Shown here one piece after another: positions 22,921-31,717 of a DNA stretch of 64,000 nucleotides. A program made the position numbers and the translations under genes. Location: NCBI RefSeq assembly GCF_011734195.1, contig NZ_JAANTH010000001.1, positions 1,302,001-1,366,000 on the forward strand, written 5' to 3'. The stretch comes from Halobacterium sp. R2-5. GTDB taxonomy: Archaea; Halobacteriota; Halobacteria; Halobacteriales; Halobacteriaceae. A model generated the notes under the pieces. That model was not told the DNA's origin, ran no database searches, and saw only the letters and a list, made by a program, of their open reading frames with translations. How positions within the stretch are numbered: the stretch's first letter is position 1; each line of letters starts with the position of its first letter.

Positions 22921-24018
22921 ATGTTCCCGCGGCTCGACTACCTCGAGTGGATCTCCGGCCGGCCCGAGGTCGCGCTGTACGACCTCGCGTCCAGCGACCT
23001 GCGCGGCGACCGCGGCCACGAGCCCGAGGCCGTGCCCGGGCCGCTGGAGGGCCTCGACGACCCGCCGAAGGGCGCGACGGTGGAGACGCAGATCGCGGGC
23101 GCGTACGGCGTCCACCCCGACCAGGTGCTGGTGACCGCCGGCGCGACGCTCGCCAACGTCGTCGCCACCGCGACCGCGCTCGGCCTCGACCCCGACGAAG
23201 ACAGCGACGAGAAACAGCGCGTGCTGGTCGAGAAACCGGCCTACGAGCCGCTCGTTGAGACCCCGGCGGCGCTCGGCGCGGAGGTCGACCGGTTCCTGCG
23301 CGGCGACGTCTACCGGCTGGACGTCGAGCGCGTGGAGAACGCGCTCACGGAGCAGACCGAGCTTGTCACCGTGACGAACCGTCACAACCCCAGCGGCTCG
23401 CTGACCGAACGCGAGACGCTCGCGGACCTCGCGAACGTCGCCAGCGACGCCGGCGCGCGCCTGCTCGTCGACGAAGTGTACGCGCCGTACGTCACCGAGG
23501 AGCGCGACGGCCCGTTCGGCGGGCCGACCGCTGCCGGACTCGATAATACCGTCGTCACGAACTCGCTGACGAAGTTCCACGGGCTCGGCGACCTCCGCAT
23601 CGGGTGGCTGGTCGCGGACCGCGAGTTCGTCGAGCGCGCGCGCTCGGTCTCCCACCACTTCCACGGGGCCGCGGGCACGTCCCGCGCGCTCGCCCGCCGC
23701 GCGCTCCACAACGAGGCGCACCTCGCGGAGCGCTCGCGCACGCTGCTCGCGGAGAACACCGAGCTCCTGGAGTCGTTCCTCGCCGAGCGCGACGACGTCG
23801 ACGGGTTCGTCGCCGACGGCTCGACGTTTGCGTTCCTCGACCCCGCGAACGCCGGCGGCGACGAACTCGTGGAGGCTGCGTGGGACGAGGGCGTGCTCGT
23901 CGTGCCCGGTCGGTTCTTCGACGACGAGGAGCGCGTCCGCGTGAGCCTCGGACGGAATCCCAGCGAGGTCGCGTCCGCGCTCGACGCGCTCCGCGGGGTA
24001 CTCGACGGCTTCCAGTAG
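22921..24018 (+). CDS. PLP-dependent aminotransferase (class I/II)
   Basis: 365 residues. The fold type I landmarks are present: the cofactor loop VTAGATLANVVA, the aspartate in LLVDEVYAPY, the Schiff-base lysine in NSLTKFHGLGDLRIGW, and the arginine in VRVSLGRN near the end. VTNRHNPSGSLTE corresponds to the usual substrate/cofactor asparagine segment. Substrate cannot be read from sequence; the HisC at 60028 is a different branch. Start ATG 22921. It stands alone between a divergent helicase and a PRC-barrel gene. Confidence 0.85.
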   Translation: MFPRLDYLEWISGRPEVALYDLASSDLRGDRGHEPEAVPGPLEGLDDPPKGATVETQIAGAYGVHPDQVLVTAGATLANVVATATALGLDPDEDSDEKQRVLVEKPAYEPLVETPAALGAEVDRFLRGDVYRLDVERVENALTEQTELVTVTNRHNPSGSLTERETLADLANVASDAGARLLVDEVYAPYVTEERDGPFGGPTAAGLDNTVVTNSLTKFHGLGDLRIGWLVADREFVERARSVSHHFHGAAGTSRALARRALHNEAHLAERSRTLLAENTELLESFLAERDDVDGFVADGSTFAFLDPANAGGDELVEAAWDEGVLVVPGRFFDDEERVRVSLGRNPSEVASALDALRGVLDGFQ

Positions 24019-24084
24019 GCGCGTCTGACATCCGCGGGACGCGAGCCTCGAAGACTTAAGGTGGCCCGCCACAATCACCGGGAC

Positions 24085-24375
24085 ATGGAACCCGGACCAG
24101 ACGAAATCACCTCGCTCGTCGGCCGCGAGGTTTACTCGAACAACGGCGTCTTCGTCGGGGAAGTCGAAGACGTCCGCCTGAACCTCGACGCGGAAGTGGT
24201 CAACGGCCTCGCGCTCAGCGAACTCAACTCCCAGCTGTTCTCCAGCACCGAGACCGGGAAGAAGGGCGTCATCATCCCGTACCGTTGGGTGCGCGCGGTC
24301 GGCGACGTCGTCCTCATCAACGACGTCGTCGAGCGCTACGAGAACCCCGACGAGGACGCGGAAGTCGCGGTCTGA
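24085..24375 (+). CDS. PRC-barrel domain protein
   Basis: 96 residues from ATG 24085. LVGREVYSNNGVFVGEVEDV is the PRC-barrel opening, followed by the LNSQLFSSTETGKKGVIIPY stretch and VRAVGDVVLINDVVE. Small archaeal PRC-barrel proteins of this size are linked in some species to RNA processing or to cell division (CdpB type). A TATA-like ACTTAAGG near 24053-24060 is at leaderless distance and supports this start rather than the GTG at 24061. Confidence 0.8.
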   Translation: MEPGPDEITSLVGREVYSNNGVFVGEVEDVRLNLDAEVVNGLALSELNSQLFSSTETGKKGVIIPYRWVRAVGDVVLINDVVERYENPDEDAEVAV

Positions 24376-24462
24376 GGCAGCGCGCTCGAACTAGTCCCCG
24401 AATTCCTTCTCACGCCGTCCCGAGCCGAACAGCGTAAGGCAGCGTGTCGGCTCCGCGGAGAC

Positions 24463-24804
24463 ATGGAAGTCGTCGGCCGACTGCTCGCGCTGCTCGCGCT
24501 GCTGTGCGTCGGCGCGTCGCTGGAACTCGACTCGCCGACCGCGGACGTCCGTGCGACCAGCGCGGTCGTCGCACTCAAGGCCGGACTGATGCCCGTGCTC
24601 GCGTGGGCGACGTTCGCCGTGCTCGCGGTGGACACGGCGACGTTCACGGCCGCCGTCGTGATGCTCGGGACGCCGACCGCGGTGTCGACGTACGTGTTCG
24701 CGACCGAACTCGGCGGTGACGGGGCGTTCGCGTCCCGCAACGTCTTCCTCACGACGCTCGCGTCGGTCGCGACGCTGTTCGTGCTCATCAGAGCCGTCGG
24801 CTGA
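24463..24804 (+). CDS. Half-length AEC-family (auxin efflux carrier-like) membrane protein
   Basis: 113 residues with four hydrophobic segments. It matches the C-terminal half of AEC permeases: LALLCVGASLEL, VALKAGLMPVLAWATFAVLA, AAVVMLGTPTAVSTYVFATELGG and ASRNVFLTTLASVATLFVLI. A full AEC carrier has about 10 helices and 300 residues, so the N-terminal half is absent. No upstream AEC coding is visible in 24376-24462. A TATA-like box (GCGTAAGGC near 24434) precedes the ATG at leaderless distance, so the piece may still be expressed. It could be a genuine half-transporter or a decaying gene. Confidence 0.6.
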   Translation: MEVVGRLLALLALLCVGASLELDSPTADVRATSAVVALKAGLMPVLAWATFAVLAVDTATFTAAVVMLGTPTAVSTYVFATELGGDGAFASRNVFLTTLASVATLFVLIRAVG

Positions 24805-24816
24805 CCGCGGGAGAAC

Positions 24817-26274
24817 TCAGCTGCCGTTCGAGCCGCCGGAACTCTCGGACTCGACGCCCATCGCGTCGAAGAGCTTCTGCGTGACCGCTTCCTCCGTGAG
24901 CGACAGCAGCGTCTCGCGGTTCTCCTCGGTGGCCTCGATGCCCGTGAAGATGCCGAGCGGAATCTCCGCCGAGGCCTGCGTGGAGTGGCCGGCGGACTCG
25001 CCGATGTTCTCGAAGGCGTCGGCGAGCACGCGCCCGATGTTCAGCCGGATGTCCTTCGAGCGCGCTGCGAGGTAGATGGTGTCCTCGACGATACCGAACA
25101 CCGCCGTCGTCGTGATGCCCTCGAGATTCAGTAGCTGGGAGGCCGCTTGCGATAACGCGTCCCGGTCGCTGATGAACCCCGCGTTCGAGACGAGGTGGCT
25201 GCCCTGGACCTCGCGGTTCGCGATGGCCTCCGCGAGCACGTCCAGGGTCTCCGGGCTCATGTTCGGCGACTCCACCTGTTCGAGGGTGTCGTGGTCCGCG
25301 AACGGGTAGAGGTACGCCGCCGCCGTCAGGTCCGCTGGCGTCGTGTCCCGGCGGAAGTCCAGCGTCTCCGCGCGAATCCCGTACAGCAGGGCTGTCGCGA
25401 CCTCCTGGCTGACGGACAGGTCGAACTCCTGGATGTACTTCGTGAGGATGGTCGACGTCGCGGAGACGTTCGGCCGCACGTCCGCGAACTCCGCGTCGAA
25501 CTGCTCGTCGACCTCGTAGTGGTCGAGGAAGATGTCGACCTCGCGGTCGAGCGTGACGTCGCCCGCCTTCGCCGGGTCGACGAGCGCGACCGTGTCGTAG
25601 TCGTCGATGTCCACGTCCCCGAACGGCGTCAGCTCGATGTCGAGGAGATTGACGAACGCGCGGTTCTCTTGGTGGCCGATGTCCCCGAAGTAGAGGATGT
25701 CCGCTGCCACGCCGAGGTGGTCGGCGATGGCGTCCAGCGCGGCCGCCGCCGCGATGGAGTCCGGGTCGGGGTTGTCGTGCGTGACGATCGCCAGCCGGTC
25801 CTCCGTGCCCTGGATGACGTCCGCGAGCTGTCGGGCCTTGTACTCCAGCTCGCCGGACTCGAGCGCTCGCAGCGCCGCGTCCGCGATGACCGACGAGGGG
25901 TTGATGACGACGTCCGCGCCGAGCTCCGTGAGCTCGTCGCTGGTCACGGGGTCGCTCGCGCGCACGACGACGAACTGCTCGCTGTTCCGCCCGCGGATGT
26001 TCGCCACCGCCGCCTCGTTGGCCTCGACGTCAGACGCCATGATGAGGACGACGTCCCGGTCCGCGACCAGACCCGCGACCTCCTCGTCGCGGATGTCCGC
26101 GACCTGCGCGTTCAGGTCCTGGTCCCGCAGCGCCTCCACGCGGGACTCGTCGCGGTCCACGATGAGGACGTCCTTCCCCCGTTCGACCAGCTCCTCGGCG
26201 ACGGCGTGCCCGACGCTCCCGCACCCGAGAATGGCGTACGTAGACATCGAGGAGATGGTTGCCCGGCTGCTCAT
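24817..26274 (-). CDS. RCK_N-DHH/DHHA1 phosphoesterase-like protein
   Basis: 485 residues. The N-terminal Rossmann domain (YAILGCGSVGHAVAEELVER; VLIVDRDESRVEALRD) is a TrkA/RCK_N-type nucleotide-binding unit. It is followed by a DHH phosphoesterase domain (IVTHDNPDPDSIAAAAALDA; VALVDPAKAGD; IFLDHYEVDEQ) and a C-terminal DHHA1 part (GESAGHSTQASAEIPLG). Such proteins are widespread in haloarchaea and related to cyclic-dinucleotide or nanoRNA phosphodiesterases. Substrate is not known. A TATA-like GGTTAAGT (near 26301-26308, minus strand) supports ATG 26274. Confidence 0.83.
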   Translation of the reverse strand: MSSRATISSMSTYAILGCGSVGHAVAEELVERGKDVLIVDRDESRVEALRDQDLNAQVADIRDEEVAGLVADRDVVLIMASDVEANEAAVANIRGRNSEQFVVVRASDPVTSDELTELGADVVINPSSVIADAALRALESGELEYKARQLADVIQGTEDRLAIVTHDNPDPDSIAAAAALDAIADHLGVAADILYFGDIGHQENRAFVNLLDIELTPFGDVDIDDYDTVALVDPAKAGDVTLDREVDIFLDHYEVDEQFDAEFADVRPNVSATSTILTKYIQEFDLSVSQEVATALLYGIRAETLDFRRDTTPADLTAAAYLYPFADHDTLEQVESPNMSPETLDVLAEAIANREVQGSHLVSNAGFISDRDALSQAASQLLNLEGITTTAVFGIVEDTIYLAARSKDIRLNIGRVLADAFENIGESAGHSTQASAEIPLGIFTGIEATEENRETLLSLTEEAVTQKLFDAMGVESESSGGSNGS

Positions 26275-26485
26275 GATGTACCCGGATACCGGAGCCCGTC
26301 ACTTAACCCTCCCGACCTGTCGTCGACGACGGGAATACCCGGCGTTCGGCGTGCTGCGGTCCGACTTTCGACTGGCCCGCTGTGCGTGGCGTCGACTGCC
26401 GCGGGAGTGAACCGTGCGACGGTGCTCCGGTCCCGTCCCGAATCAGAACGTATTTGAGTTCCACCGCCAAACGGTGGAATGCGTT

Positions 26486-26559
26486 GGGCCGGTAGCTCAG
26501 TTTGGCAGAGCGACGGACTCTTAATCCGTCGGTCGCGTGTTCAAATCGCGCCCGGCCCG
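26486..26559 (+). tRNA. tRNA-Lys (CTT anticodon)
   Basis: 74-nt cloverleaf. The acceptor GGGCCGG pairs with CCGGCCC, with G as discriminator. The anticodon stem ACGGA/TCCGT encloses loop CTCTTAA with anticodon CTT. The T arm is GCGTG-TTCAAAT-CGCGC. CCA is not encoded. The 3' half is the attachment target of the mini-element that follows. Confidence 0.95.
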
Positions 26560-26561
26560 CT
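26530..26561 (+). repeat. attL of the tRNA-Lys mini-element
   Basis: The tRNA 3' segment from the anticodon-stem side of the T arm to two bases beyond the gene. It is repeated at 28627-28659 with a single inserted base (GTGTTCAA here, GTGTCTCAA there). Recombination at this site keeps the tRNA gene intact on the left side. Confidence 0.85.
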
Positions 26562-26645
26562 GAAATTCTTATCGAGTAATATTGGCGAGAAGAGGCCCTA
26601 ATACCCAAGTATTCTCTTGGGGATTGGAGGGTGATTTGAACACCT

Positions 26646-26756
26646 ATGGAAGCGGAACGGGCCGCCTTATCGAGGTCTACCGTGGCCGAGCCATTTTTAC
26701 TGCCAGAATGGGGCCAGCCGTATGATGGAACACAGCCACACCGATTTTCACGGTAA
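26646..26756 (+). CDS. Possible 36-codon ORF in the mini-element
   Basis: Starts MEAERAALSRSTVAEPFLLP and ends in HRFSR. A Shine-Dalgarno-like GGAGGGTGA lies at 26626-26634, 11 nt before the ATG. A hairpin (CCCAAG/CTTGGG, 26604-26621) lies just upstream. No family is recognised; it may be part of a broken larger gene. Confidence 0.3.
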   Translation: MEAERAALSRSTVAEPFLLPEWGQPYDGTQPHRFSR

Positions 26757-26801
26757 GTGCAAGGAATAGATTGAAAGAATTAGCCCATTTATTCAGGGGA
26801 T

Positions 26802-27335
26802 GTGATTCCCTCTTTCACAACTGTCGAATGGGCAATTATCGGCGGGGGTGTTGTTTCTTCAGCCACGTTAGTATTCGTCTTCTTAGATTTTTACTGGAGT
26901 CATATTGTAACGGAACGGTCAAACATTTCAATTCGTAAATCACTCTCCAGAGAATCCAATCATAATTCGACAGGAAGCAAAAGTAGAATTTATAGTCCGT
27001 GCACACTTGCTAATGAAGGGAAACGCTCCGGGGTTGTTCGAGCGAAGAATGCCCGTCTACGGTTTGAACCGTCCGGTACAGAATTCACTTGGGAGGAGAT
27101 GGAAGAATTGGAGTCAAACCAGACTCCATATATGAAAATTCAGGGATTAGACAATAACTCTGTACCCGCTGATTCCACGGTGGAAGCGAGTGTTAGGTTT
27201 GGCACTCGCTCCATCGAGCGTTTGAATTCTTTGATGGAGAGTCAAGAGTCGATTATGATTAGTGGTGTGATAGATGTAGAAGATAATCAGGGCCACTACC
27301 AAATTGATTATGCTGATAAGATAGAACTGGGTTGA
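26802..27335 (+). CDS. Membrane-anchored protein of unknown function, mini-element cargo
   Basis: 177 residues from GTG 26802. One transmembrane helix (residues 9-29: EWAIIGGGVVSSATLVFVFL) is followed by a mostly beta-strand soluble part (SRIYSPCTLANEGKRSGVVR; RAKNARLRFEPSGTEFTWEE; ADSTVEASVRFGTRSIERLN). The pattern of strands resembles an immunoglobulin-like fold but no family is recognised. Codon use is AT-rich compared with the chromosome. It is the only substantial cargo of the element. Confidence 0.6.
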   Translation: MIPSFTTVEWAIIGGGVVSSATLVFVFLDFYWSHIVTERSNISIRKSLSRESNHNSTGSKSRIYSPCTLANEGKRSGVVRAKNARLRFEPSGTEFTWEEMEELESNQTPYMKIQGLDNNSVPADSTVEASVRFGTRSIERLNSLMESQESIMISGVIDVEDNQGHYQIDYADKIELG

Positions 27336-27553
27336 TTCGCAAATACACTGAGTAGGTGATTCACGCACTTGGTGGAGAAGATATGTCTATTGATGATAGT
27401 TCTATGACGACTCCCTCCTCCTATACGTAGCAGTCGTAATCCGCTGCCGGCCTTATCGGTGTCCCAGATTAGAAAAATTCGACTTGGGTGGTTCCCCTCT
27501 ACCGTTGTCGTCTCTTCAGGAGGCTCCTCACGGAATCCCACAGACAGGGGGTG

Positions 27554-28582
27554 CTACAGGTCTTTCATAAATTCCTCCCGACGAGCAAGCGCGTCAGCAT
27601 CTTCTGGCTCGTCGTAGTGTGACTTGATAATTTCTGGAGAGGCATTCACGCGGTCGCTGAGATGCTCGACCGGCCAACCGTTGTTTCGATGGTAGGTGAT
27701 TGATGCACTTCGAATCGCGTGAGGGAAGTAGTTGAACGGACAGCCGGCGGCGGGCGAGCTTCCCGCGTACTCACACTCATCGGGGTCACGGTCGTCAGGA
27801 CAGGGTTCCCCATATTCGCAGGGGCGAGTCATCTGATACACCCAGTTGCGAATCGCGGTTCGAGAGACCCGACCGTAGTTAGTCGAAATCAGGGGCTGTC
27901 GGTCGTTGTCGTCCGTCGCGTCAATTCGGTTGTCGGCGAGGTAGTCGTCTAACAGGCGACCCATTCCCTCAGATAGGTTCACTGCTCGCTCGCCGCTGTG
28001 TTTGTTTTTCAGGGGCGTTCCGGAGGATTCCCGGTGCTTGACCTTGATATAGCTCTTCTGAGGGTAGTAGTCCTCCACGTCGAGTCCGTGAATCTCGCCG
28101 AGTCGCATCGCTGTGTGCCACATCAATTCGAGCGCTGTGTGGCGGTTGCTCGCGTACTCGTACTTCCGAAGGTAGTGGAGAGCCGCCAATATCTCGTCAG
28201 TATCGACATCCTTCCGACGAGCCTTCTCCTTCTTGCTGATGGACGGCACCAAGACCTTCTCGTGGAGGCCTTCCGGCACCGCGTCAATCTTCTCGCAAAA
28301 CCGGATGAACACACGGAGCGTGGACATCTGGGTCCGTTGGCTCACTCGATTCAAGTCGCCCTCCTTGGTCCGCCACGTCTTGTATCGGTGGACCTTCCTG
28401 CCGTCGAGGTCGTTCAGATTGTCCAATCCAACTTCGTCACACCAGCGGACGAAGTGTTGAAGCCTGATTCGGTGAGCGTTGAGCGTGTTCTCACTGTACT
28501 CTGCGTCCTTCTCATCGAGGTACCAATCGAACGCGTCTTCTGGCTCGATTGGTTCGAGGGAGCGGTCGTTCATAGTTGGCAT
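27554..28582 (-). CDS. Tyrosine recombinase/integrase of the mini-element
   Basis: 342 residues. An N-terminal SAM-like core-binding domain (FDWYLDEKDAEYSENTLNAH) is followed by the catalytic domain. Box I arginine is in LMWHTAMRLGEIHGLDVEDY, box II is HAIRSASITYHRNNG (H-x-x-R), and the tyrosine nucleophile is in IIKSHYDEP. A cysteine-containing insertion (CEYGEPCPDDRDPDECEYAG, then GCPF) precedes box II. Starts at 28582 or at ATG 28573 (MNDRSLEP) are both possible. It reads away from the right att site, as in other tRNA-targeting haloarchaeal elements. Confidence 0.9.
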   Translation of the reverse strand: MPTMNDRSLEPIEPEDAFDWYLDEKDAEYSENTLNAHRIRLQHFVRWCDEVGLDNLNDLDGRKVHRYKTWRTKEGDLNRVSQRTQMSTLRVFIRFCEKIDAVPEGLHEKVLVPSISKKEKARRKDVDTDEILAALHYLRKYEYASNRHTALELMWHTAMRLGEIHGLDVEDYYPQKSYIKVKHRESSGTPLKNKHSGERAVNLSEGMGRLLDDYLADNRIDATDDNDRQPLISTNYGRVSRTAIRNWVYQMTRPCEYGEPCPDDRDPDECEYAGSSPAAGCPFNYFPHAIRSASITYHRNNGWPVEHLSDRVNASPEIIKSHYDEPEDADALARREEFMKDL

Positions 28583-28626
28583 AACCCGAAGAAGGAGGGG
28601 ACTACTTCACGCGAGCGAAGCGAGCG

Positions 28627-28659
28627 CGGTCGCGTGTCTCAAATCGCGCCCGGCCCGCT
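28627..28659 (+). repeat. attR of the tRNA-Lys mini-element
   Basis: CGGTCGCGTGTCTCAAATCG and following bases, repeating the tRNA-Lys 3' end with one extra C in the T loop. A functional T loop is no longer encoded here. Confidence 0.85.
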
Positions 28660-28668
28660 TCTCTCTGA

Positions 28669-28842
28669 CAACGGCACTCTATCAGTCTCACGTCCGTTTC
28701 TGTCCGAACTAACTTCCGAACGTCTGTCGAACACTCGAACGATTCCGCGGAGTGGCACCCGGTCGCGACGCGGTTCGGCGACGGCGAGTTCCACCTGTTC
28801 GCGTTCTGCTGTGACGACTGTCACAGCGCGTGGCTCGCCGAG
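28669..28842 (+). pseudogene. Start-less remnant of a small zinc-binding protein gene
   Basis: An open frame ending at TGA 28840-28842 codes for EWHPVATRFGDGEFHLFAFC then CDDCHSAWLAE, which reads like the C-terminal part of a small haloarchaeal zinc protein (DUF7576-like). The frame opens after a stop at 28666-28668 and has no ATG, GTG or TTG in its 57 codons. It begins 10 bp beyond attR. Loss of the 5' end by the integration is the likely cause. Confidence 0.5.
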
Positions 28843-28929
28843 TGACCGGGTTCGACCTACCCGCGAGGCGGAAGTTGTCGAAACTGGTTAACGTGGTGAC
28901 GGCGTTGGACCGGGTAGCAGACGCCGCAC

Positions 28930-29520
28930 ATGGACACTCAGGACTCCCCCGTCGTGCTCGTCGTGGACGACGAACGCGACCTCGCCGACCTCTTCACAGC
29001 GTGGCTGTCCAGCGACTACGACGTCGAGACCGTCTACAGCGGACAGGACGCGCTCGGCGCGCTCGACGACGCCGTCGACGTCGTGTTGCTCGACCGCCGC
29101 ATGCCCGACCTCTCGGGGGACGCGGTGCTCGCGGAGGTCCGCGAGCGCGGCCTCGACTGCCGGGTGGCGATGGTGACCGCCGTCGATCCGGACTTCGACA
29201 TCGTCGAGATGGGGTTCGACGACTACGTCACCAAGCCGGTCTCCAGCGAGGAGCTCCACGAGCTCGTCGAGCGATTACTCGCGCGCAAGCAGCACGACTC
29301 GGCCGTCCAGCGGTACTTCCAGCTGGTGTCGAAGCGCGCCGCCCTGGACGCCCAGCACGGCGCGGACGCCGGCGACGACCCGAAGTACGAGGCGCTGGAG
29401 GCCGAGATCGAGTCCCTGGAGGCGGAGGTCGACTCGCTCACCGAGGAGTTCAGTGAGGACGACTTCGCGGCACAGCTCCACCGCATCGGCCAGGACGCTG
29501 CCGCCGAAGACGACGGCTGA
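28930..29520 (+). CDS. HalX-type response regulator
   Basis: 196 residues. The receiver domain (residues 7-120) has the acidic pair in LVVDDERDLADLF, phosphoacceptor Asp55 (VVLLDRRMPDLSG), Thr in AMVTAVDP and Lys in YVTKPVSSEEL. It is followed by a HalX domain (AVQRYFQLVSKRAALDAQHG) and a coiled coil rich in Glu (YEALEAEIESLEAEVDSLTE). REC-HalX proteins are haloarchaeal regulators whose output is not established; no DNA-binding motif is obvious. No kinase gene is adjacent. Confidence 0.88.
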   Translation: MDTQDSPVVLVVDDERDLADLFTAWLSSDYDVETVYSGQDALGALDDAVDVVLLDRRMPDLSGDAVLAEVRERGLDCRVAMVTAVDPDFDIVEMGFDDYVTKPVSSEELHELVERLLARKQHDSAVQRYFQLVSKRAALDAQHGADAGDDPKYEALEAEIESLEAEVDSLTEEFSEDDFAAQLHRIGQDAAAEDDG

Positions 29521-29604
29521 GGGCGCGACCACCCGAGTCGGTGCAGACGCCAGGTCTCGGGAACTGCGGGTGGTTTTAAGCCCCCGACGGGCGTCGTGCC
29601 GAAC

Positions 29605-30024
29605 ATGTACCGCGTGCTGGTGCCGGTCGACGACAACGTAGAACGCGCGCTCTCGCAGGCCCGCTACGTCGCGAGCCTGCCGGAGGCGGCGGAGAACGTC
29701 GAAGCGATCGTACTGTTCGTGTTCACTGGCGACAACGGCGACCTCCCGGAGGACGTCCAGCAGTTCAAGTCCGCGAGCCGCATCCAGTCCGTGCGGCGCG
29801 CCCAGGAGTTCCTCGAGGACGCCGGCGTCACCGTCCAGGTCCGGGACGACTCCGGGGACACCACCGACGACATCCTCGCAGACGCCGAGGAGTACGACGT
29901 CGACGCCATCGTGCTCGGCGGCCGGAAGCGCTCGCCCGCCGGGAAGGCCATCTTCGGCAGCGTCACCCAGTCGGTCATCCTGAACAGCGACCGCCCCGTG
30001 GTCGTCACGGGCGAGGACGCCTGA
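29605..30024 (+). CDS. UspA-type universal stress protein
   Basis: 139 residues. MYRVLVPVDDNVERALSQAR is the UspA opening, and the C-terminal nucleotide-loop region is IVLGGRKRSPAGKAIFGSVT followed by VILNSDRPVVV. The ATP-binding G-x2-G-x9-G(S/T) pattern is recognisable (GGRKRSPAGKAIFGS). ATG 29605 follows a TATA-like GGTTTTAAG near 29571-29579 at leaderless distance. Confidence 0.88.
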   Translation: MYRVLVPVDDNVERALSQARYVASLPEAAENVEAIVLFVFTGDNGDLPEDVQQFKSASRIQSVRRAQEFLEDAGVTVQVRDDSGDTTDDILADAEEYDVDAIVLGGRKRSPAGKAIFGSVTQSVILNSDRPVVVTGEDA

Positions 30025-30078
30025 AGCGGACACTCGCGACCGTAACGAATTTTTCCCGAGGCGCCGAATCGGCCACAC

Positions 30079-30201
30079 ATGGCGCTGGAAACGTACGAGT
30101 GCCAGAGCTGTGGCGACGAGTTCAAAGCGTTCGAGGACTCGGTGGCCGCGGACGACGGCTACTGCAGTCCGCGCTGCGAGACCGAAGGGAAAGGACTCTG
30201 A
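30079..30201 (+). CDS. Small zinc-ribbon protein
   Basis: 40 residues: MALETYECQSCGDEFKAFED at the N-terminus, then YCSPRCETEGKGL. The C-x2-C and C-x3-C pairs form a one-site zinc ribbon typical of the many haloarchaeal micro zinc-finger proteins. It lies 55 bp after the UspA gene in the same direction. Confidence 0.65.
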   Translation: MALETYECQSCGDEFKAFEDSVAADDGYCSPRCETEGKGL

Positions 30202-30217
30202 GCGGTCGGCGAACCCC

Positions 30218-31717
30218 TTACTCGTTCTGCGGGCTGTAGTTCGGCGCCTCGTCCGTGATCATCACGTCGTGGGGGTGGCCCTCGGTCTGGCCGGCCGAGG
30301 AGACGCGGACGAACTCGGCGTCGGCCTTGAACTCGGGGATGGTCTCGGCGCCGACGTACCCCATGCCGGACTGGATGCCGCCGACGAGCTGGTGGAGCTC
30401 CTGGGCGAGCGGGCCCTTGTACGGCGTGGCGGCCTCGACGCCCTCGGGGACGAACTCCTCGTCCTCGTCTTCGTCCTTGAGGTAGCGGTCGCCGCCGCCG
30501 GACTGCATCGCGCCGACCGAGCCCATGCCGCGGTACTGCTTGTACTTCTTGCCGTTCATCGTGATGACGCGACCGGGGGCCTCGTCGGTCCCCGCGAAGT
30601 AGGAGCCGAGCATGACGGCGTCGGCGCCCGCGGCGATAGCCTTCGCGGCGTCGCCGGAGTACCGGATGCCGCCGTCCGCGATGACGGGGACGTTCTCGGG
30701 GTCGGCGACGTCCGCGACTTCGGAGATGGCCGTAATCTGGGGCATGCCGGCGCCCGTGACGACGCGCGTCGTGCAGATGGAACCGGGGCCGATGCCGACC
30801 TTGATGCCGTCCGCGAAGTCGACGATGGCCTCGGCGGCCTCGCGGGTGCCGACGTTCCCGACGACGACGTCCGCGTCGACGGTCTCGCTGATCTCCCGGG
30901 CGGACTCGATGACGTTCTCGTTGTGGGCGTGCGCGCAGTCGATGAACAGCACGTCCGCGTCAGCGTCGTCGGCGGCGGTCGCGCGGTCGGTCTCGAACGG
31001 CCCGACGGCGACGCCGACGCGGAGGCGTCCCTGCTCGTCTCGGGCGGCGTTCTCGTGCTCGCGGCGCTCGAGGATGCCCTGCATCGTGACGAGGCCCACG
31101 AGGCGGTCGTCGGCGTCGACGAGCGGCACGCGCTCGATCTTGTGCTCGTACATGAGCTCGAGCGCGTCGCGCGCGGTGACGTCCTCGCTGGCGGTGATGA
31201 CCTCGTCGGTCATCGCCTCGCGGACGGTGTCGGACTCGCCGACTTCGAGGTACGGGCGGATGTCCGTCCCGGAGATGATGCCGAGGACTTCGTCGTCGTC
31301 GTCGACGACGGGCGCGCCGGAGACGCCCTCGTAGCTCATCATCTCGTCGACCTCGCTGACGGTCTGGCCGGGGCGCGCGGTGACGACGTTCTCGCGGCTG
31401 ATGACGAGTTCGTCGGCCTGCTTGACGCGCTCGACCTCGGCGGCGGTCTCCTCGACGTCCATGTTGCGGTGGAGGACGCCGAGGCCGCCCTCGCGGGCCA
31501 TCGCGATGGCGAGGTCGGACTCCGTGACGGTGTCCATCGCCGCGGAGAGAATCGGGGTGTTCAGCGAGACGTTCGTGGAGACCCTGGTGGAGACGTCGGC
31601 GTCGTCGGGCTCGACGCGGCTCTCTGCGGGTCGCAGGAGCACGTCGTCGAAGGTCAGCGCTTCCGGAACGCGGAGCTTCTCGGAGAACCGGCCGTTCGTC
31701 GAGGAATCGTTCGCCAT
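30218..31717 (-). CDS. guaB: Inosine-5'-monophosphate dehydrogenase
   Basis: 499 residues from ATG 31717. IMPDH converts IMP to XMP in guanine nucleotide synthesis. The N-terminal TIM-barrel part ([40 protein letters not shown]) is followed by two CBS domains (about 100-215), then the barrel again with the catalytic Cys loop [14 protein letters not shown], the phosphate site [13 protein letters not shown] and the flap [19 protein letters not shown]-like GTTTTTGC (minus strand, near 31741-31749) supports this start, rather than the longer frame beginning at 31831. Confidence 0.96.

Follow-up and report, generated by a model that had tools for sequence, protein, structure and literature searches.

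A putative minimal integrative element with exchangeable cargo at a tRNA-Lys gene of Halobacterium sp. R2-5, and its possible gene-less relatives at haloarchaeal tRNA genes

How few genes can a haloarchaeal integrative element consist of, and can such a small element still be active? These questions are raised by a 2.1-kb stretch behind a tRNA-Lys gene on the chromosome of Halobacterium sp. R2-5 (genome code G000). It lies in the 64-kb stretch of DNA that was analysed (C1:1302001-1366000), which is called the window in the following and to which all positions without another label refer. We consider it probable, with odds of roughly two in three, that this stretch represents a minimal integrative element, site-specific and with one exchangeable cargo gene, and that it is a gene-loaded relative of short gene-less units located at tRNA 3′-ends.

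The target gene, tRNA-Lys(CTT), i.e. tRNA-Lys(CUU), was predicted with ARAGORN (26486-26560, plus strand) and is intact. Sequence comparison revealed two copies of its 3′-end on the plus strand, which are the putative attachment (att) sites, i.e. a left copy of 32 nt (26530-26561) and a right copy of 33 nt (28627-28659), the latter 2,098 bp downstream of the former. The only difference between the copies is an additional C, which lies in the T loop of the right one; at their 3′-ends, both copies share an exact repeat of 21 nt (26541-26561 and 28639-28659). With up to three mismatches allowed, the att repeat has just two matches in the whole window, compared with 0.01 expected from shuffles. 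Thus, both the near-perfect repeat of the tRNA-Lys 3′-end and the additional T-loop base of the right copy, which had been noticed in a first-pass annotation of this DNA, were confirmed. The GC content between the copies is 0.42-0.59, versus 0.62-0.72 outside of them (windows over 24000-31000). The only convincing genes between the copies encode an orphan protein of 177 aa and a tyrosine integrase of 342 aa. All other open reading frames (ORFs) are short or overlap one of these two genes, so that the earlier view that nothing but an integrase and a protein of unknown function is enclosed holds true. An integrase gene within a tRNA-derived direct repeat, next to an intact tRNA gene, is the arrangement by which integrative mobile elements are recognized.

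The start of the integrase gene (27554-28582, minus strand; Pfam PF02899 at 1e-9 and PF00589 at 1e-7) and the right att copy are about 45 nt apart. Five residues of the protein, R160, K192, H288, R291, and Y323, are invariant across nine aligned integrases; we take them to be the candidate catalytic set (R, K, HxxR, Y), and the integrase is apparently intact. It is 41.4% identical to the integrase of HRPV9 and, over 98%, 38.9% identical to that of SNJ2. It therefore belongs to the SNJ2-type family, the criterion for which in PMC8371274 is an identity to the SNJ2 integrase of 30% or more over 60%. According to the same paper, the accessory genes orf2 and orf3 are not required for the family; they are present in SNJ2, and no ORF was found in their place in the element.

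Relatives of the integrase at E ≤ 1e-60 are present in 343 of the 391 haloarchaeal genomes that were searched. We examined 24 loci of the SNJ2-type family, and nine of them could be delimited by a tRNA gene and its copy. The sizes of these nine elements are 2.04 (G353, see below), 2.10 (the window), 3.7, 4.8, 5.6, 6.5, 13.9, 16.0, and 18.8 kb. The element of R2-5 is the second smallest, in line with its initial description as one of the smallest plausible integrative units. For the other 15 loci, no matching tRNA gene was found in the stretch examined; at least two of them are on short contigs (L145 and L150).

A sister element of 2,044 bp is present at the same tRNA-Lys gene in another genome of the genus (G353). 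Its integrase is 99% identical, and its right copy has the same extra base. The DNA of the two elements matches through position 26760, and the match resumes at position 27440, while the segment between them (26761-27439; the borders are the ends of the BLAST pieces) is without similarity. This segment contains the gene for the 177-aa protein (26802-27335, plus strand), which is replaced in G353 by a different ORF of 138 aa on the opposite strand. In contrast to the cargo segment, both sides match, and the palindrome CACGCGAGCGAAGCGAGCGCGGTCGCGTG (28608-28636, read from the sequence), which adjoins the right core, is identical in G353. Two species have the same two-gene layout with different cargo, and the element is thus a minimal one whose cargo is exchangeable. 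The case that would have spoken against an element, i.e. the same genes without the flanking repeat in related genomes, did not appear; the only close relative of the element that was found, in G353, has the repeat.

The gene order around the target is conserved: a TrkA-type gene, tRNA-Lys, and the genes for a response regulator, UspA, and IMPDH follow one another in G000, G353, G067, G319, and G234. The tRNA-Lys gene of G067 is followed by a 6.5-kb element, the integrase of which is 42% identical. In G234, 400 bp separate the tRNA gene from the response-regulator gene, with no integrase match in the 10 kb examined and no copy of the tRNA end at up to 3 mismatches in 20. In G319, a single gene-less unit precedes the response-regulator gene. 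Thus, a tRNA-Lys site without the element, which the first-pass annotation had suggested looking for, exists in relatives. Gene-less units are also found at this locus in G003, G376, and G035. The next closest integrase (G070, 56% identity) belongs to a 3.7-kb element, which likewise lies at tRNA-Lys(CTT) and is followed by further tRNA-end copies or units. As a side observation, the sequences to the right of both core copies of the G067 element (L066, 1464-8060) resemble each other, which gives the impression that two related elements came together there.

From the loci examined, 70 tRNA-end units were collected. This set was chosen in part by a tRNA-Lys-specific pattern, and the architecture derived from it is that of a biased sample. 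The lengths of 64 units are 106-161 bp, and those of the others are 64-75 or 189-247 bp. The usual plan starts with the tRNA 3′-end and a hairpin, continues with the T arm of this tRNA in inverted orientation and a second hairpin, and ends with the tRNA 3′-end copied in direct orientation. The second hairpins belong to a few recurring families. Separately, a motif GTAC(C/T)TTTTTAC...CGGG was seen after the last core at L116, L120, L138, and L143 (tRNA Arg-tct, Arg-ccg, and Ser-gga).

Less biased estimates of the occurrence of the units were obtained from a census of the tRNA genes of G000, from motif counts in the 391 haloarchaeal genomes and in a phylum sample, and from a test of tRNA neighbourhood. 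For the census, copies of the 3′-end of each tRNA gene (at most 2 mismatches in 16) were counted 40-250 bp downstream, and an equal length upstream was used as the control. Of the 44 tRNA genes, which are ARAGORN predictions including at least two that look spurious (both at L320, with implausible introns), 17 have their own 3′-end repeated downstream, versus 0 of 44 in the upstream control, and most of these repeats are parts of gene-less hairpin units. The distances of the copies range from 64 to 206 bp, and 15 of the 17 are at 106-149 bp (loci L110-L139 and L315-L324).

The motif GATTTGAA-N28..58-TTCAAATC, which does not require a tRNA, was found in 348 of the 391 haloarchaeal genomes, with up to 23 instances per genome, and the reversed control had none among the matches listed. 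The phylum sample yielded the motif in 67 of 75 haloarchaeal genomes versus 21 of 299 other genomes (one each), with 2 of 374 for the reversed control. A longer motif was searched in the 84,980 genomes of a species collection and gave at least 120 stretches; 73 of the 80 listed are haloarchaeal. When the better strand of the palindromic match was used, 59 of these 73 stretches lie downstream of the tRNA that they copy (at most 4 mismatches in 19), 58 of them within 200 bp. Of the remaining 14, five are near the end of a piece, and another six have 5-6 mismatches to a tRNA located 39-240 bp in front of them. The last three, L226, L242, and L253, have no same-strand tRNA in the piece; L242 has an SNJ2-type integrase about 200 bp away. 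A tRNA-Lys-specific form of the unit is present at 42 places in 35 of the 391 genomes (control: 0), whereby tRNA-Lys units cannot be counted as independent among related genera. Units are a feature of the class Halobacteria as a whole. The seven other matches among the 80 listed are not haloarchaeal. Two non-haloarchaeal matches to the unit motif, in Woesearchaeota (L209) and Rhodospirillaceae (L259), are likewise located behind the tRNA whose 3′-end they copy, at a distance of about 30 bp.

Within the genus, the presence of units at a given tRNA gene varies. A copy 133-265 bp downstream of tRNA-Gly(GCC) was found in 7 of 13 species, and the other six have none at the threshold applied. G000 has two copies, at 133 and 263 bp, the copy of G376 is decayed, and the downstream sequence of several copy-bearing species matches that of the copy-less genomes G245 and G067. 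At tRNA-Arg(CCG), 3 of 13 species have a unit; G353, with a unit, and G319, without one, share 1,329 bp of the right flank at 82%. At the same tRNA gene, G000 has a unit of 148 bp and G035 has an integrase about 43-44 kb away, and the right junction is the same in both (92% over the 112 bp beyond it). Counting tRNA-Lys, three tRNAs of this genus show the pattern of presence and absence. One hairpin family is found at different tRNAs: 60 of the 91 pairs that can be formed from 14 units of G000 align better than all 91 shuffled pairs (the shuffles for this alignment, as well as those for arms and hairpin stability below, preserve only the base composition).

The clearest tie between integrase elements and gene-less units is found at a tRNA-Tyr gene of G033 (L142, 14288-19400), where a 4.8-kb integrase element is followed by a gene-less unit of 135 bp. 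The element and the unit share the right 103 nt, with 3 substitutions and 1 gap, as well as the left 14 nt. The left arm of the window element also resembles the units. It contains a small hairpin (CCCAAG...CTTGGG; 26604-26621, plus strand) at the same place as hairpin 1 of the units, and an inverted copy of the tRNA-Lys T arm (26631-26644, minus strand; 2 mismatches in 14) that lies 70 nt behind the core and is equalled by 1 of 500 shuffled arms. The inverted T arm of the G353 element is at the same distance (3 mismatches in 14, equalled by 2 of 500 shuffled arms). In the tRNA-Lys units of the genus, it is found at 68-70 nt in five cases and at 37 nt in one case (G035); one short copy does not have it.

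The following mechanism would be compatible with these features. The SNJ2-type integrase would have recombined a circular form, with the order palindrome, tRNA-Lys 3′-end, and left arm, with the tRNA-Lys 3′-end of the chromosome, and the integration would have restored the tRNA-Lys gene. The element would follow the left-arm plan of the units, i.e. core, about 70 nt, and inverted T-arm copy, and it would be a gene-loaded relative of the gene-less units at tRNA 3′-ends throughout Halobacteria. The units in turn would be miniature attachment-site units that come and go core-to-core at tRNA ends. The element may still be able to excise.

Several observations weigh against this mechanism. No circle was observed, and neither was an empty allele within the species. 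The fourfold divergence between G000 and G353 is 0.162 for the integrase gene and 0.152-0.351 for four chromosomal neighbours; the former value is within the range of the latter, and inheritance in place is therefore possible. A recent horizontal transfer of the element between the two lineages is not supported, as the integrase divergence is like that of the neighbouring genes. Of the nine delimited integrase elements, just two have a clear inverted T arm and two more a borderline one, and therefore the equation of an element with a loaded unit is not general. In addition, units are present in 16 of the 20 listed genomes that have no integrase relative at 1e-60 (28 more such genomes are outside this list), one of which has 13 units. 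For these two reasons, we do not claim that SNJ2-type integrases move the units. Units on viruses were considered and rejected: six viral contigs match the longer motif, the matches look of another kind, and no SNJ2-type integrase was found in the pieces examined.

A different explanation for the 2.1-kb stretch would be a dead deletion relic of a larger element that has been inherited vertically, the cargo of G353 being a later replacement. The alteration of the right copy by one base, the neighbour-like divergence of the integrase gene, which fits vertical descent, and the often much larger size of elements with SNJ2-type integrases are in accordance with a relic. However, only 3 of 342 residues differ between the integrases of G000 and G353 (99.12% identity), versus 24 of 148 fourfold sites, which indicates purifying selection, and the key residues are kept. 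A relic also does not readily account for the same two-gene layout with different cargo in two species. Furthermore, the extra base is common to the G353 element and is therefore not a private lesion. Among the 70 distal tRNA-end copies, which are from other tRNAs and species (related sequences included), 20 have a single extra T-loop base as well, and such a base is also present in the gene-less unit behind L142. The att sites of the SNJ2 type have been reported to be free of stem-loops and to comprise 13-14 nt of the tRNA 3′-end (PMC8371274), and two of the nine delimited elements (L140 and L158) share just 13 nt with their tRNA, versus a contiguous block of 21 nt in the R2-5 element. Judged by the lengths of 13-14 nt, the extra base probably lies outside of the recombining core. 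The initial proposal that the extra base has fixed the element is thus not supported, and a dead relic appears unlikely to us.

For the units, two alternatives to mobile attachment-site units were weighed. They could be parts of tRNA transcription or processing that do not move, and the mini-element would just happen to have inserted there; we regard this as doubtful. Hairpin 1 would then be terminator-like, and hairpin 2 would be an RNA hairpin with an anti-T-arm bound to a decoy version of the tRNA end, a proposal that we view with similar scepticism. The position and orientation of the units behind tRNA genes would be explained, as would their presence in genomes without a close integrase. 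The hairpin-1 region is structured (n=68; the median z against mononucleotide shuffles is -2.70, with 63% below -2), and both variable NN/NN stem pairs are complementary in 27 of 29 family-a units, with six dinucleotide types (related sequences included), showing compensatory changes and thus conserved base pairing. In contrast, hairpin 2 is only weakly stable in its inner part compared with shuffles (median z -1.15, 18% below -2), no match to Rfam was found in the ten loci searched, and 27 of the 44 tRNA predictions of G000 have no copy at the threshold of the census. Furthermore, the same tRNA is accompanied by zero, one, or two units of different hairpin families among the 13 species, which also weighs against such a role. 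Alternatively, the units could be scars, i.e. independently formed internal deletions of integrative elements that left fused att arms behind. This would fit the shared ends of element and unit at L142 and the location of units behind the right attachment sites of elements in G353, G070, L140, and L142. However, hairpin families recur across tRNAs and genera, as exemplified by the 60 pairs of G000 units mentioned above, and in G119, units in tandem have second hairpins that are identical. Propagation therefore fits better than repeated independent deletion, and an origin of the units as scars seems questionable. The reading as attachment-site units that are gained and lost at tRNA ends can be extended further: haloarchaeal tRNA genes might be anchors of miniature hairpin-bearing cassettes that are stacked core-to-core and can be loaded with genes, similar to integrons, with the 2.1-kb element as a loaded cassette. 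We put this forward as a tentative idea, conceivable and on balance not probable.

The element and the units were compared with known systems. SNJ2-type (betapleolipovirus) proviruses have an integrase of the same family and also integrate at a tRNA 3′-end, which is that of tRNA-Met in the case of SNJ2. They differ by their viral genes and Orf2/Orf3, and by a size of 15-17 kb (lengths of pleolipovirus records) versus about 2 kb here. Integrons have cassette arrays that are anchored at a single site, attC sites that form hairpins of inverted core boxes, and units that are loaded or empty. In contrast, the anchor of the units described here is a tRNA gene, and the integrase is not of the integron type, since it scores 18.7 bits with NCBIfam TIGR02249, versus a cut-off of 265. 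Tycheposons combine direct repeats of a tRNA end with a tyrosine recombinase, small cargo, and cargo turnover; to our knowledge, gene-less hairpin units of such a size have not been described for them. The Haloquadratum island GI3 and a tRNA-Ala provirus share the duplication of a tRNA 3′-end (22-43 nt) and an adjacent integrase with the element, but they encompass 20-52 kb, according to PMC3119063, compared with a single cargo gene here. The same paper describes haloarchaeal miniature inverted-repeat transposable elements (MITEs) and palindrome-associated transposable elements (PATEs) as gene-less and too short for a recombinase, PATEs having palindromes near their ends. The units share these features, but they sit at tRNA genes and end in direct copies of the 3′-end of the neighbouring tRNA, and not in the terminal inverted repeats that define MITEs (a transposon library was not searched). 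A literature search, which included the accessible parts of PMC3119063, PMC9897764, PMC7714728, and PMC8371274 and was mostly confined to papers outside of subscription, retrieved no description of gene-less tRNA-end units.

The R2-5 element would set the minimum for a haloarchaeal integrative element at one integrase, two arms, and one exchangeable gene. If the units are mobile, they represent a new kind of non-autonomous element that lands at tRNA ends; if they are functional RNAs, they add a new layer to the expression of tRNA genes across a class of archaea. Both possibilities can be tested in genetically tractable haloarchaea.

Judging from the sequence, the 177-aa cargo protein, called “membrane-anchored” in the first-pass annotation, has a single hydrophobic stretch at its N-terminus. 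No family was assigned at the cut-offs used for Pfam, PHROGs, PADLOC, and NCBIfam, and an AlphaFold model was uninformative (predicted local distance difference test value of 32.5). Apart from the protein itself, the 391 haloarchaeal genomes contain one homologue (G372, 52% identity), and none was found on plasmids. No integrase match was present in the 17 kb examined around the G372 gene (L065, 6659-12556), which adjoins a DUF4238 gene and an ORF that resembles a C5 methylase by eye. The cargo may be a passenger that protects either the host or the element.

The genes on both sides are outside of the element. The left flanking gene (24817-26274, minus strand), which from its sequence we take to be of the TrkA-N/DHH type, is located upstream of tRNA-Lys(CTT) in 13 of 13 genomes of the genus as well as in G070. 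The response-regulator gene (28930-29520, plus strand) forms the right flank, which is conserved downstream of tRNA-Lys in G353, G067, G319, and G234; in G035, the first 30 residues of the response regulator are encoded at the end of the stretch examined. The right flank (28659-28669) begins with TTCTCTCTGAC, which resembles the start of hairpin 1 behind tRNA-Lys(TTT) of G012 and is perhaps a remnant of an older unit.

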